A DNA stretch of 30,238 nt from assembly GCA_001797815.1 (NCBI GenBank), contig MGQK01000065.1, forward strand, positions 1 to 30,238, in the 5' to 3' direction. The translations under genes were made by a program, and so were the position numbers. Position 1 is the first letter of the stretch. Each line of letters opens with the position of its first letter. The notes under the pieces were generated by a model. That model was not told the origin of the DNA and did no database searches. It saw nothing but the letters and a program-made list of their open reading frames with translations. This DNA comes from Deltaproteobacteria bacterium RBG_13_61_14 (GTDB lineage: Bacteria; RBG-13-61-14). This document shows, piece by piece, positions 11,251-24,182 of the stretch.

Positions 11251-11901
11251 CTATGCGATGCCAGGTCCTTCCAGAGAATTGAGATAGCTCACCAGTTGAT
11301 CCACGCTGGTGGAGGGATTTTTCGTCTCTTGGTCTTGATTGTCTCGATGATATTTCCGGAGGTCTTGCGCACGTTTTGTCGCCACGCTTTGGTGACCAAG
11401 GAGAATTTGATAAACCTCCATCGCTTTATGATATCTCTGAATATACCTCTTGAGTTTTCTGATCACTTCCCTACGCTCGATATGCGAGGTCTGATCTTTA
11501 TAATGCAGTAAATACCAAAGCTCAAAAGATGGGTTTGAAAACGCGATGTTAAACTGGTTGGCGTTTGCCTGCTGAAAGGCGGCTTCAATGCCCCGATGGA
11601 CGTCGCGGTCAAAGACACACCAGACTTCATCCACGCTGAGACCTTCCTTCTTAAATTCTTGTTTTAAAAATTTTGCATGCTTGACGATACTTCGCGGATG
11701 GCTCCCACCTTCTCCCCCAATAATTGGTATCTGCTCTGGGCTTATCCTTTTCATTTTCCTCAGGGCTATAAAGTATTTCGGCTCCGTTTTCTTACCTTCG
11801 CATACTATTAAAACAATTGGCCTTGGAATCCTGGAAGGTTCTTTCCTGGCAAAAGACCTTCTCACCTGGAACAGAGTTTTACTTTTTATACTAGCGGCCA
11901 T
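11251..11901 (-). CDS. rloB: RloB-like TOPRIM-type protein (putative defence effector)
   Basis: The product is 216 aa from ATG 11901, which overlaps the rloA stop by 11 bp; that translational coupling decides the start over the longer open frame reaching 12027. The N-terminal RPIVLIVCEGKKTEPKYF (E35) and the later DEVWCVFDRDVHRG (D98, D100) give the Glu and DxD pattern of a TOPRIM-like metal site. FSNPSFELWYLLHY (121-134) is a hallmark of the RloB family (PF13707). RloB proteins travel with RloA ATPases beside restriction loci. By analogy with the ATPase plus TOPRIM pairs of PARIS, OLD and Gabija, this is probably the nuclease effector. It is AT-rich relative to the window, suggesting transfer. 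Activity is inferred, not shown. Confidence 0.8.
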   Translation of the reverse strand: MAASIKSKTLFQVRRSFARKEPSRIPRPIVLIVCEGKKTEPKYFIALRKMKRISPEQIPIIGGEGGSHPRSIVKHAKFLKQEFKKEGLSVDEVWCVFDRDVHRGIEAAFQQANANQFNIAFSNPSFELWYLLHYKDQTSHIERREVIRKLKRYIQRYHKAMEVYQILLGHQSVATKRAQDLRKYHRDNQDQETKNPSTSVDQLVSYLNSLEGPGIA

Positions 11902-13264
11902 TACCCCAGCTCTCCAAGATGGGGATCGCACCAAAGCGGCCGGCCAAGTAGCCTTTCTGCAAATTCTCTTCCTTGCGGGGCTTTCCTTCCTTGAAATCCC
12001 AAATGGAATATAAAGATGTAGCCCCATCAGACTCTTTTTCTGTTAACCAGATTTGATCTCGTCGAAATAAGGCCTTGTCCAGAAGACTGGCATCATGTGT
12101 CGTGAAAATCAGTTGAGCCCCTTTCTGGTTAAGCTCTTCTTTGTGAAAGGTCTGGATGAGCCATTTGGTTAGCAAGGAATGCAACCGAACGTCTAGCTCA
12201 TCCACCACCAGCGTGGCACCCTTCTCTAAAGCATCTAGCCAAAGACCCGAAAGAGAAAAGAACTTTTGCGTGCCATCTGATTCTTCGGTAAATTCAAAAG
12301 GTATATTCATAAAGTGGCCACTCTTATCCTTTCCTTCATGAACAGTAATCACATTATTTTTAGAAAGCTCGTAAGGTTCAGAACCCTTTTTAGATATCTC
12401 TTTTAACACGTTAGTAAGCGTCTTATCCAAAGCTTTAACAGCCCTATCAAAGTCTTTCATTACTTTTTTATATTTACCAGGTAATTTAGATTTAACCTTT
12501 AAATGGCCAATGGGAACTTTTTCTACAATAAAGTCCCTGATGCCCAAATCAGCTTGTTTCAAGAAATCAATAATTTCTTCTTTTTTACCTGCTTCCCGCT
12601 GAATTAGGCGACAAGTTTTAAAGAAGTCTGATCCTTCAGCTGGATTCCAAGAAATAAATTTGAGCCATTCCTGAAACCAACTCATAACATTATCTGCAAG
12701 CTTGTTATTAAATTGAGCTGCCACAGAAAGAAAAAGGGCTTGGGAGCGAGCTCTTTTGGCTAATCGCTTTCTTTCACCTTCCCAATAGGAGCTGAATCTG
12801 AACTGGGGTTCTGATTTTTTTGTTTTTTGGGTCCGCTCGAACAGCATACGTCCCTTTTTCTTTTCATAACTAAACAACCATTCACGATGAATATATTGAG
12901 AGTCCGCAGAGAAGCCGTAATTATAACGGACTCCTCTCCATAAAAAGGTTATGTCAAAAGTGCTGGGTTTAGAAACCATAGCTGCGTCTAATTTGAATGG
13001 AGTAATCTTGATAGGGGTATCTCCTTGTTGGTTTTGCGTGGAAGTTCTAAGAAAATTTCTCATGAATCTTATTGCGTCAATGAGGTTGGATTTGCCAGAA
13101 GCATTGGCTCCGTAAACCACCGCGCTTTTCAAGAGATTCAGATTGGTGCCCTGAGCTGACCGGATAAAGTTTGGCGGCAAAGCGTTGTCCTTGGCCGCGA
13201 CCATGCTCAGGGTCGCTCGTTCCTTGAAAGAGAGAAAGTTCTCTACGCTGAACTCGATTAACAT
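11891..13264 (-). CDS. rloA: RloA-like AAA/ABC-type ATPase (putative defence sensor)
   Basis: A 457-aa protein that starts MLIEFSVENFLSFKERATLS, typical of the SMC/RecF-like ATPases of the AAA_15/AAA_21 group. Walker A is GANASGKS (52-59). A signature-like ESDGTQKFFSL lies near 328-338, Walker B is TLVVDELD (351-358), and a switch histidine is in FTTHDASLLD (387-396). The middle region (about 150-300) is helical and Lys-rich, as in OLD/Rlo ATPases. Together with the coupled rloB it forms a two-gene unit resembling known anti-phage ATPase/effector pairs, where the ATPase senses infection and holds or releases the effector. It is markedly more AT-rich than flanking genes. GGAGGAAAC precedes the ATG. 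No restriction-modification genes are in the window. Confidence 0.85.
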   Translation of the reverse strand: MLIEFSVENFLSFKERATLSMVAAKDNALPPNFIRSAQGTNLNLLKSAVVYGANASGKSNLIDAIRFMRNFLRTSTQNQQGDTPIKITPFKLDAAMVSKPSTFDITFLWRGVRYNYGFSADSQYIHREWLFSYEKKKGRMLFERTQKTKKSEPQFRFSSYWEGERKRLAKRARSQALFLSVAAQFNNKLADNVMSWFQEWLKFISWNPAEGSDFFKTCRLIQREAGKKEEIIDFLKQADLGIRDFIVEKVPIGHLKVKSKLPGKYKKVMKDFDRAVKALDKTLTNVLKEISKKGSEPYELSKNNVITVHEGKDKSGHFMNIPFEFTEESDGTQKFFSLSGLWLDALEKGATLVVDELDVRLHSLLTKWLIQTFHKEELNQKGAQLIFTTHDASLLDKALFRRDQIWLTEKESDGATSLYSIWDFKEGKPRKEENLQKGYLAGRFGAIPILESWGNGR

Positions 13265-22096: not shown

Positions 22097-22552
22097 TTAA
22101 TCCCTGTTCTTCCTCGGGCTCCGCATCCCGGCTTGCAGCATCTGGCGCAGGCGAGAAAGAGCATTAAGATACCGGCGCAAGGCCGCGCTCCGGTGGATCC
22201 GGAGCCGCTTCGCGGTCTGGGTCACGCTCAGGCCCTCCCAGATCACCAGCTCCACCACCTGCGCCTGCCGACGGGTGAGCAGGACCTTTGCCTCCCGCCG
22301 GCTCAACGGGGACACCATTGGAATGGTGTCCCAACTCCCCTCGGTCTCTCCCTCATTGGGGACACCATCCCAATGGTGTCCCAACTCCGCCGCCCTCTCC
22401 GCCAGAAGCTCCAGCGTCTCCAGCGACACCAAAAACTCGCGCTGGTAGCCGCATTGCCGGCTGAGCTCCGCCTCCAGCGCCCCGCACGGCTTCGCGCACT
22501 CCGCCCGCTTCGGGCAGCTCGGACACAGCCCCTTGCTTTTCCTCTTCGCCAT
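22097..22552 (-). CDS. Cys-rich helix-turn-helix protein (sigma-region-4-like)
   Basis: The product is 151 aa from ATG 22552 (GGGAGG 6 bases upstream). The N-terminus holds a compact cysteine cluster, CPSCPKRAECAKPC (C10, C13, C19, C23; also C34), which could bind zinc or an Fe-S cluster. The C-terminus (about 90-140) is an HTH of the sigma-70 region 4 / LuxR type: LTRRQAQVVELVIWEGLSVT, QTAKRLRIHRSAALRRYL. The middle (about 57-84) is encoded by two 30-bp palindromic repeats and reads as low-information sequence, so it may be an insertion. It is third in a minus-strand series after Xre and an unknown gene, but lies 211 bp away from them. It could be a phage-type late regulator or redox-sensing activator. 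Confidence 0.65.
   Translation of the reverse strand: MAKRKSKGLCPSCPKRAECAKPCGALEAELSRQCGYQREFLVSLETLELLAERAAELGHHWDGVPNEGETEGSWDTIPMVSPLSRREAKVLLTRRQAQVVELVIWEGLSVTQTAKRLRIHRSAALRRYLNALSRLRQMLQAGMRSPRKNRD
22309..22338. repeat. 30-bp palindromic repeat inside HTH gene, copy 1
   Basis: GGGACACCATT / AATGGTGTCCC with a 2-nt centre, then AACTCC. It differs from copy 2 only in the three central bases (TGG here, CCC there). On the coding strand it is read as SWDTIPMVSP. Confidence 0.75.
22359..22388. repeat. 30-bp palindromic repeat inside HTH gene, copy 2
   Basis: GGGACACCAT, loop CCCA, ATGGTGTCCC, then AACTCC. It lies 50 bp from copy 1, so it is read in another frame, giving LGHHWDGVPN. Confidence 0.75.
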
Positions 22553-22640
22553 GAAGAGCCTCCCAGGCAAATCCACCCGTGGGCCGGCCCCTGGCAGGAC
22601 TCACCGGCAAAAAGTTGCGCCCCCTCTTCAGGCAGGCAAG

Positions 22641-22748
22641 AAATTTTGGATTTTAGATTTGGGATTGGCGATGGGGAAAGAGGAATTAGAATACTTGCCG
22701 CTTTCCTGCTCTTCAATCCAAAATCCAAAATCGAAAATCTAAAATTGA
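22641..22748. repeat. AT-rich inverted repeat (AATCCAAAATCC type)
   Basis: The left arm near 22643-22667 (TTGGATTTTAGATTTGGGAT) and the right arm near 22714-22748 (CAATCCAAAATCCAAAATCG) are roughly complementary low-complexity tracts. It fills the gap between the HTH gene and the unknown gene. No gene seen in it. Confidence 0.55.
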
Positions 22749-22763
22749 ATAGTGCCCCCATCG

Positions 22764-23120
22764 CTACAGCACCAGCTTCTGGGGCCGGGGCGGATCAAAT
22801 TCCTCGATGCACATGGCCCGGCCCGAGTCCACCTTGACCAGGTAATGGCGGAAGCGATGGCCCCCGGCCGCGGCCAAAAGCCGCGCCGCCTGCCGCATCA
22901 AGCTCTCGTTGCGCGTTTCGCCCATGCTCCCTGCACCTCGACCTTGCTCGGTGACTTCGTCTTTCGGGCACCGCTCCCGTTCGGCCCGCCCTCGGCCATG
23001 AGCTCGGGCCGAATGGAGCTCACGGCCGAGGGGCGGTTCGCCCTGGCAGCGGCTGGACTGGCCCAGTTGACGGCAAAAGCCTTGTCCTTGCCCGTTCGGT
23101 TCCCAATATAAACAGGCCAT
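22764..23120 (-). CDS. Hypothetical protein in Xre operon
   Basis: The product is 118 aa from ATG 23120, which has AAGGGG 9 bases upstream; it begins 30 bp after the Xre stop, so the two are likely one unit. The C-terminal half (NESLMRQAARLLAAAGGHRF, HYLVKVDSGRAMCIEEFDPP) looks genuinely coding. The middle (about residues 30-45) is encoded by a nested palindrome at 22980-23032 and is Arg/Ala-rich. An internal ATG at 22925 would give a 53-aa protein free of the palindrome and is the main alternative. I recognise no family. Confidence 0.45.
   Translation of the reverse strand: MACLYWEPNGQGQGFCRQLGQSSRCQGEPPLGRELHSARAHGRGRAERERCPKDEVTEQGRGAGSMGETRNESLMRQAARLLAAAGGHRFRHYLVKVDSGRAMCIEEFDPPRPQKLVL
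22989..23032. repeat. Large palindrome inside the unknown gene
   Basis: The arms CCCTCGGCCATGAGCTC (22989-23005) and GAGCTCACGGCCGAGGG (23016-23032) pair with one mismatch. A second overlapping pair is TTCGGCCCG (22980-22988) / CGGGCCGAA (23005-23013), so two alternative folds are possible. Its 14-mer GAGCTCACGGCCGA also occurs in the yfhO-like gene. Confidence 0.6.
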
Positions 23121-23143
23121 GATCAAGTCCCCTTTCGGCGCAT

Positions 23144-23160
23144 AAACAAACTATTTGTTT
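23144..23160. promoter_or_regulatory. AAACAAA-CTA-TTTGTTT palindrome at Xre stop codon
   Basis: Perfect 7-bp arms around CTA, which is the Xre stop codon on the minus strand. No T-run follows a GC stem, so an operator is more likely than a terminator. It may be autoregulatory for the downstream gene, but that is inference. Confidence 0.4.
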
Positions 23161-23378
23161 GCTCGATTATCAAAAAAAATCCAGGGCTCGACCCCAAACA
23201 CATCGGCCAGGGCCAACAAAGAACTTATTTTGGGCTTGGTCTTTCCTTGTTCCCATTGGCAGATAGCGGATCGGCTCACCGAATAGCCGCATCTCGTTGA
23301 TAATAGGCGGGAAAGAGCGCCTAAAGAGTAGGCCCGATCCTTGCGAAGCCGGCGCAACACGTCTCTTGAAAATTTCAT
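23151..23378 (-). CDS. Xre-family HTH regulator
   Basis: A 75-aa single-domain Cro/CI-type protein. The HTH spans about residues 17-55: YSLGALSRLLSTRCGYSVSR, then AICQWEQGKTKPKISSLLAL, with the typical WEQGKTKP turn, and ALADVFGVEPWIFF closes the domain. GGAGGT precedes the ATG. It lies opposite an S24 repressor gene, and the two promoters share one -10 element, so this protein and the S24 protein probably oppose each other as Cro and CI do. It has no dimerisation or sensor domain, as in small Cro-like proteins. Confidence 0.85.
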   Translation of the reverse strand: MKFSRDVLRRLRKDRAYSLGALSRLLSTRCGYSVSRSAICQWEQGKTKPKISSLLALADVFGVEPWIFFDNRANK

Positions 23379-23398: not shown

Positions 23399-23427
23399 TT
23401 GACAGACCCTTTAGAGCGTGATACTAT
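23399..23427 (+). promoter_or_regulatory. Rightward promoter (S24 repressor)
   Basis: TTGACA (23399-23404), a 17-nt spacer, TACTAT (23422-23427). The predicted start near 23434 leaves a leader of about 74 nt. Confidence 0.75.
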
Positions 23428-23449
23428 ACAAACAGTTAGTAATTGTCAA
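23421..23449 (-). promoter_or_regulatory. Leftward promoter (Xre), sharing the same -10
   Basis: On the minus strand TTGACA (23449-23444), a 17-nt spacer, TAGTAT (23426-23421). Its -10 overlaps that of the rightward promoter by five bases, and the pair is symmetric about 23424. RNA polymerase cannot occupy both at once. Confidence 0.75.
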
Positions 23450-23507: not shown

Positions 23508-24182
23508 ATGAAAAACTTGGGAAAAATGATCTCGAAGCGGATGCGCGACCTAGGGCTTACTTACAACGAGGTTGCCCGCCGGGCCGGGGTCTCCGCGGTT
23601 TACGTGTCCGGCATCTGCCGGGGGCTCCGCTTCCCCAGCGACAAGGTGGCGGCTGACCTGGCCCGGGCCTTGGACCTGAGCCCCCGCGGCCTGATTGAGC
23701 TGGCCCGCTACGAAAAAGCGCCGGCCGCGGTGAAGCCGCTTTATGAACCAAAGGAAGACCACGATCAGCTCCAACCCATGCCCCTGGGCCATGCTCGGGG
23801 CATCCCCATGGCCGGATGGGTCCAGGCCGGAAGGTTCGCCCCGGCCGAGGGGATCGAGGCGGCCGGCGGGGCCGACGATTACGTCTATTCCGACATCAAG
23901 GGCCACAACCTCTTCGCCCTGCGGGTGGAGAACGACTCCATGGAGCCGCTCTTCCATCCCGGCGATTACCTGATCGTGAACCCCAACCTCAAACCGGCTA
24001 CCGGCGACTACGTGATCGTCAAGCTGCCCCAGGAGGGCAAAGCCACTTTCAAGAAGCTGCTCGAGCGCGAGGGCATCATCATCCTGCGGCCGCTCAACCC
24101 GGCCTACGATGACATCGTGCTCACCCCAGAGGACGAGTTCGAGATCATCGGCAAGGTGGTGGAGAGGAAGACGATATTTTAA
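23508..24182 (+). CDS. LexA/CI-like S24-family repressor
   Basis: The product is 224 aa from ATG 23508 (TAAGG upstream; an in-frame extension to 23418 would start inside the promoter). Residues about 5-65 are an Xre-type HTH (YNEVARRAGVSAVYVSGICR, then ALDLSPRGLIELA). Residues about 97-220 are the S24 self-cleavage domain: an Ala-Gly cleavage site in IPMAGWVQAGRF (A102-G103), catalytic Ser in ENDSMEPLFHPGD (S144) and Lys in ATFKKLLEREG (K182). All parts of the RecA-stimulated autoproteolysis machinery seem present, so DNA damage should inactivate it. Divergent from Xre with an overlapping promoter, as in temperate phage switches. It could also be the cell's own stress regulator; no other phage genes are clear. 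Confidence 0.85.
   Translation: MKNLGKMISKRMRDLGLTYNEVARRAGVSAVYVSGICRGLRFPSDKVAADLARALDLSPRGLIELARYEKAPAAVKPLYEPKEDHDQLQPMPLGHARGIPMAGWVQAGRFAPAEGIEAAGGADDYVYSDIKGHNLFALRVENDSMEPLFHPGDYLIVNPNLKPATGDYVIVKLPQEGKATFKKLLEREGIIILRPLNPAYDDIVLTPEDEFEIIGKVVERKTIF

Follow-up and report, generated by a model that had tools for sequence, protein, structure and literature searches.

The window analysed here is a stretch of 30,238 nucleotides, contig MGQK01000065.1 of the Deltaproteobacteria bacterium RBG_13_61_14 assembly (GCA_001797815.1), in which two regulator genes diverge from a 129-bp intergenic region. The gene on the forward strand (23508-24182) encodes an S24 repressor of 224 amino acids with the N-terminal HTH and C-terminal Peptidase_S24 domains of CI/LexA-type proteins, and is of the lambda CI type according to Pfam (PF00717 at 3.8e-26), a full-length match to the lambda repressor 3bdn (5e-17), and a match to the PHROG repressor family phrog_4 (6e-40). 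Ser144, Lys182 and Ala107-Gly108 do not vary in an alignment of three orthologues; by analogy with LexA and CI we take these to be the Ser/Lys dyad and the cleavage site. The protein is CI-like with its cleavage residues intact, and would be of the self-cleaving type, as the initial annotation of this DNA had described it. A search for structure in the 5′ leader of the S24 mRNA found nothing special (z = 0.44). On the reverse strand, xre (23151-23378) encodes a single-domain HTH regulator of 75 amino acids (HTH_3/HTH_31; PHROG transcriptional repressors), which is Cro-like in size and position and is preceded by a strong SD, GGAGGTGA.

Between the two genes lies a pair of opposing sigma70-type promoters, recognised by sequence inspection and placed as the initial annotation had proposed. 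On the forward strand, P-S24 (23399-23427) consists of TTGACA at 23399-23404, a 17-bp spacer and TACTAT at 23422-23427; on the reverse strand, P-xre (23421-23449) consists of TTGACA at 23449-23444, a spacer of the same length and TAGTAT at 23426-23421. Both -10 hexamers are contained, one on each strand, in the heptamer ATACTAT (23421-23427, centred on 23424), and these common base pairs are what characterises the shared -10 element of bidirectional promoters. Each -10 hexamer scores 4/6 and both -35 boxes are consensus. The P-S24 spacer ends in an extended -10 (TGa), and the predicted start near 23434 gives a leader of 74 nt; the P-xre start is predicted near 23414 (the nearest purine being 23412), with a leader of about 36 nt. 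The opposite-strand starts would thus be 20 bp apart, or 22 bp if the reverse-strand transcript begins at the purine. An alternative -10 for P-xre, TATAGT at 23428-23423 (5/6, spacer of 15), would leave an equally large overlap, and no other reverse-strand promoter scoring 9/12 was found near xre. The symmetry about 23424 that had been claimed for the segment is true of the promoter elements and does not extend to the 51-mer as a whole: by eye, the two spacer stretches of 16 bp share only about 2 of their 16 positions when one is reverse-complemented. The 51-mer is no general palindrome, and its symmetry is restricted to the promoter elements.

The shared-core promoter pair is not a product of chance. 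Shuffling the 129-bp intergenic region 5000 times by dinucleotides gave -10 hexamers that overlapped in any way in four cases and a pair scoring 20/24 in none; when the whole 30-kb window was shuffled, a 20/24 pair appeared somewhere in 2 of 30 cases. The exact pattern TTGACA-N16-ATANTAT-N16-TGTCAA has a single occurrence among 386 genomes, which is the present locus. Allowing up to three mismatches gave about 140 matches in 60 genomes against about 70 for the reversed control (totals added by hand); this two-fold excess is general and agrees with the literature, which regards shared -10 elements as common. A shared -10 was absent from all 27 S24 loci examined at greater distance, but as most of them are without a divergent Xre the comparison carries little weight.

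Recognisable orthologues of the S24/xre pair were found in three genomes only, that of the window included. The two relatives found in the same taxonomic order, G001 and G002, are metagenome-assembled genomes of 'uncultured delta proteobacterium', labelled AlinenSediments. In both, the S24 gene (52-54% identity) is divergent from xre, whose product is 43% identical in G002 and 38% in G001. The promoters of G001 are TTGACA-N17-TACTAT to the right and TTGACA-N17-TTTAAT to the left, with -10 hexamers that overlap by 2 bp; those of G002 are TTGACA-N17-TATCAT to the right and TTGACA-N17-TATGCT to the left, with separate -10 hexamers. P-S24 retains its extended -10 (TGn) in each of the three genomes. 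Because a MAFFT alignment of the intergenic regions misplaced the gaps between the promoters, positions were compared from anchored elements. By this measure the facing -35 boxes are separated by 39 bp in the window, 44 bp in G001 and 68 bp in G002, while each -35 remains exactly 17 bp from its own -10 in every genome; compared with G001, the distance from the conserved TACTAT to the facing -35 is shorter by a net 5 bp in the window. A gap that varies in this way is what two promoters would give, and not a single palindromic protein site.

Consideration of the three genomes together indicates that sharing of the -10 is specific to the lineage of the window, since it gives way to a 2-bp overlap in G001 and to separate elements in G002. 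The symmetry of the 51-bp segment, whose conservation in related genomes the initial annotation had put forward as a check, is accordingly not conserved. The second promoter, whose absence from homologous loci had been named as an observation that would speak against the proposal, is kept in both relatives.

The initial annotation had covered neither the putative operators nor the probable operon that begins with xre, both of which are added by the present analysis. A dyad, CAAAC-N5-GTTTG, recurs in the intergenic regions of G001 and G002, and a PWM built from five dyad sites of these relatives alone was scanned over the 30-kb window. The top scores fall at the S24/xre locus, with 22.9 bits at 23147-23161. 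This site, O-distal, is a perfect dyad, CAAACTATTTGTTTG, which overlaps the xre stop codon and lies about 280 bp from O1 (23425-23443), a degenerate copy with two registers, 23425-23439 and 23429-23443. O1 covers the predicted P-S24 start and sits within the P-xre spacer; its registers score 10.8 and 11.3 bits, second to the distal site in the 30-kb window, and with the next-best unrelated window site (17323) at 11.1 bits it is inconspicuous but for its position.

That position is reproduced in the relatives. In all three genomes a dyad starts at -5 from the predicted P-S24 start, and in all three a dyad lies 15-16 bp before the facing -35, both being degenerate in the window. These are one and the same dyad, in overlapping registers, in the window and G001, and two separate dyads in G002. 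Both relatives have a third dyad, 19 bp past the facing -35, which has no counterpart in the window. The distal dyad is found at the xre 3′ end in three of the three genomes, weaker in the relatives and perfect in the window; when each genome in turn was left out of the model, shuffled sequence matched the xre 3′-end dyad in 3/2000 and 1/2000 cases for the relatives and in 0/2000 for the window.

The exact dyad occurs at two places in the whole genome, one of them O-distal, and its regulon therefore looks local. We looked for a genome-wide regulon and rejected it: the second exact site (C80:90-104) is some 90 bp after the beginning of a contig and has no evident gene start beside it, the closest inexact site (C42:25391) is within a PQQ-type reading frame, and no wider regulon is claimed. 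As to which protein would recognise the dyad, the recognition helix of the S24 repressor is nearly unchanged across the three genomes (SAVYVSGI, SAVYISQV and SSVYISQV) and that of Xre varies (SRSAICQW, SRGGFSMW and SRTSLNHW). The better-kept helix makes the S24 repressor the likelier binder, and we infer that it binds CAAAC-N5-GTTTG.

Behind xre on the reverse strand, a gene for a small protein of about 54 amino acids (22764-22928) is probably the second gene of an xre operon. The protein gave no family match in PHROG and NCBIfam searches; similar small ORFs, judged by eye, follow xre in both G001 and G002. The third gene of the operon is probably that at 22097-22552, also on the reverse strand, whose product has a Cys-rich start and resembles sigma70 region 4 (Pfam sigma70_r4 and NCBIfam sigma factors, both below cut-off). 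Its orthologue follows xre in G001; in G002, where the first contig breaks off at that point, it is found on a different contig. After the xre operon of G001 there is also a gene (L035 1828-3066) for a sigma-70-family factor that contains regions 2 and 4, and none was seen beside the operon of the window.

Several features of the intervening DNA may be recorded. The genes for Xre and the small protein are about 220 bp apart in the window (22929-23150) and nearly touch in both relatives. Between the genes for the small and the sigma-like proteins, 22640-22750 is AT-rich and carries AATCCAAAATC / GATTTTGGATT-like units that are repeated in opposing directions. The palindrome GGGACACCAT-N4-ATGGTGTCCC occurs twice within the sigma-region-4-like reading frame (22309-22332 and 22359-22382), in a stretch that is absent from the G001 orthologue; this genome has 10 copies, of which one carries a mismatch, and G001 and G002 have none. 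It looks like a dispersed palindromic repeat that was inserted in frame.

Examination of the neighbours with Pfam gave ordinary chromosomal genes, among them LptD, a CRP-like protein, a beta-lactamase fold, an esterase and an ArsP permease, and no phage genes were seen among them. The S24 protein has no close phage relative, with 27-33% identity among the matches listed. A prophage origin was considered and rejected on these two grounds; judged by the neighbours examined, the locus does not occupy the prophage or phage-derived location of a CI/Cro-type phage immunity switch. Elsewhere in the window, on the reverse strand at 11251-13264, the gene for an RloB-like protein adjoins and overlaps that for an AAA_21 ATPase (RloA-like), a candidate defence pair.

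Comparison with known regulatory systems gives insight into what is particular to this locus. It resembles the lambda CI/Cro and P22 C2-type switches in having multiple operators, predicted in our case, and a CI-like S24 repressor (3bdn, 5e-17) whose gene diverges from that of a small HTH regulator. A CI/Cro-type switch also requires that both regulators recognise the same operators, each with a preference of its own. The lambda promoters PRM and PR are distinct, are arranged back to back, and have their operators in the interval that separates them. The promoters described here instead face each other over one -10, their predicted operators are located at the starts, and the surroundings showed no phage genes. 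The initial annotation had presented the shared -10 as a departure from the usual separate -10 sites; in general the arrangement is not unusual, since 19% of the RNAs detected in E. coli are generated from shared -10 bidirectional promoters (PMC12825309).

The bidirectional promoters of Warman, Grainger and colleagues (PMC12825309, PMC10268837) likewise have a near-symmetric -10 that serves both strands, bind polymerase in one orientation at a time, and often yield mRNAs. Their starts are most commonly 18 bp apart (also 10 and 23), whereas here the predicted distance is 20 bp around the heptamer ATACTAT and both sides have a consensus -35 and a 17-bp spacer. The Pc/Pr promoters of plasmid pLS20 and their regulator RcoLS20 (PMC4207663) offer a second parallel, with divergent promoters that coincide or overlap, the gene of a master repressor to one side, an extended -10, and operators over the promoters along with a second, distant operator that the repressor bridges to them. 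Our predicted dyads would be the counterparts of these operators. The pLS20 system differs in that it controls plasmid conjugation and has no RecA-type induction, while the present locus has an S24 repressor; our distal site is about 280 bp off at the xre 3′ end, and looping here is a proposal. Shared-core divergent promoters are thus already known, and exclusion at shared or overlapping divergent promoters has been described (PMC12825309, PMC4207663). What is particular here is that a CI-like repressor and a small Xre flank such a promoter with no visible phage genes, and that three genomes form a series of separate, overlapping and shared -10 elements.

On balance, we propose that the locus is an autoregulated chromosomal regulator pair of the CI/Cro type on a bidirectional promoter; the divergent pair and the predicted operator dyads are present, O1 being weak in the window, and we hold this reading to be reasonably probable. 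From the geometry, polymerase would occupy the shared -10 in one orientation at a time, which would make the S24 and Xre transcripts alternatives at each binding event. At O1 the S24 repressor would lie over the start of its own promoter and over the P-xre spacer, from where it could either shut both promoters or tilt the balance between them; bound also at the distal site, it may form a DNA loop with O1 or block the downstream operon. DNA damage would lead to RecA-stimulated self-cleavage of the repressor, as in CI and LexA, and release the locus, whereupon Xre would take the opposing regulatory role and its operon would be switched on. The two promoters may have slid together in this lineage, after which the near-palindromic TACTAT could serve both strands; alternatively, sharing may have been lost elsewhere.

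How much the exclusion contributes is a separate matter. Five bidirectional promoters of E. coli fired too seldom under basal conditions to compete, although activation of one side repressed the other (PMC12825309); exclusion may therefore matter little. Both -35 boxes are consensus at the present locus, and firing may be higher than in those cases. According to the authors of the pLS20 study, who cite Bendtsen et al., overlapping promoters act as a switch only if their strengths are unequal and the regulator acts differently on each (PMC4207663). The initial annotation had called the locus a hard-wired either/or switch; the exclusive occupancy stands on geometric grounds and the switch is an over-reading, since exclusion alone does not make one. 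The exclusion is physical, while a bistable switch is beyond the present evidence. It is a tentative suggestion that the decision lies wholly on one -10, with either S24 or the Xre operon chosen per polymerase binding and the choice biased by S24 repressor that links O1 to the distal site.

The alternative that best survives is that the overlapping promoters seldom compete, that ordinary repression at the dyads accounts for regulation, and that the shared -10 reflects neutral drift in spacing. Sharing in one of three lineages is consistent with this, as are the lack of basal competition at the five E. coli promoters (PMC12825309) and the operators, which hold fixed positions relative to each promoter even where the promoters separate. 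With both -35 boxes at consensus, firing may nevertheless suffice for competition, and we judge neutral overlap to be rather unlikely. It is also conceivable that only P-S24 matters, the reverse-strand -10 being a by-product of the near-symmetric TACTAT and xre being transcribed weakly or from another site. Of the two promoters P-S24 is the more conserved, having its extended -10 in all three genomes; divergent RNA is common from shared -10 elements (PMC12825309), and the facing -10 of G001, TTTAAT, is without the key -11A. We consider this improbable in view of the perfect facing TTGACA and 17-bp spacer, which persist in all three genomes despite the sliding, and of the strong SD of xre downstream of a promoter that has no 9/12 substitute nearby on its strand. 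That the TTGACA/TGTCAA arms are halves of a regulator-binding site and not -35 boxes seems very improbable: they are exact inverted repeats, and facing TTGACA pairs with gaps of 25-50 bp exceed the reversed control in many of 60 genomes, yet each arm slides with its own -10 at exactly 17 bp while the gap shifts, which argues for promoters and not arms of one protein site, and another dyad, CAAAC-N5-GTTTG, looks like the operator.

The interest of the regulator pair, read as a CI/Cro-type locus on a bidirectional promoter, is moderate and lies mainly in its use as test material. Recent work on bidirectional promoters raises the question of whether exclusive polymerase binding is used for decisions or is an accident of -10 symmetry. 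Here a single regulator pair in three genomes, with -35 gaps of 39, 44 and 68 bp and operators that are near-fixed relative to the promoters, provides natural test variants, which could show directly how sharing a -10 alters a switch. If the decision does lie on one -10, the related lineages would represent steps from separate through overlapping to fully shared elements, and would form a natural series for the effect of promoter overlap on a bistable switch.
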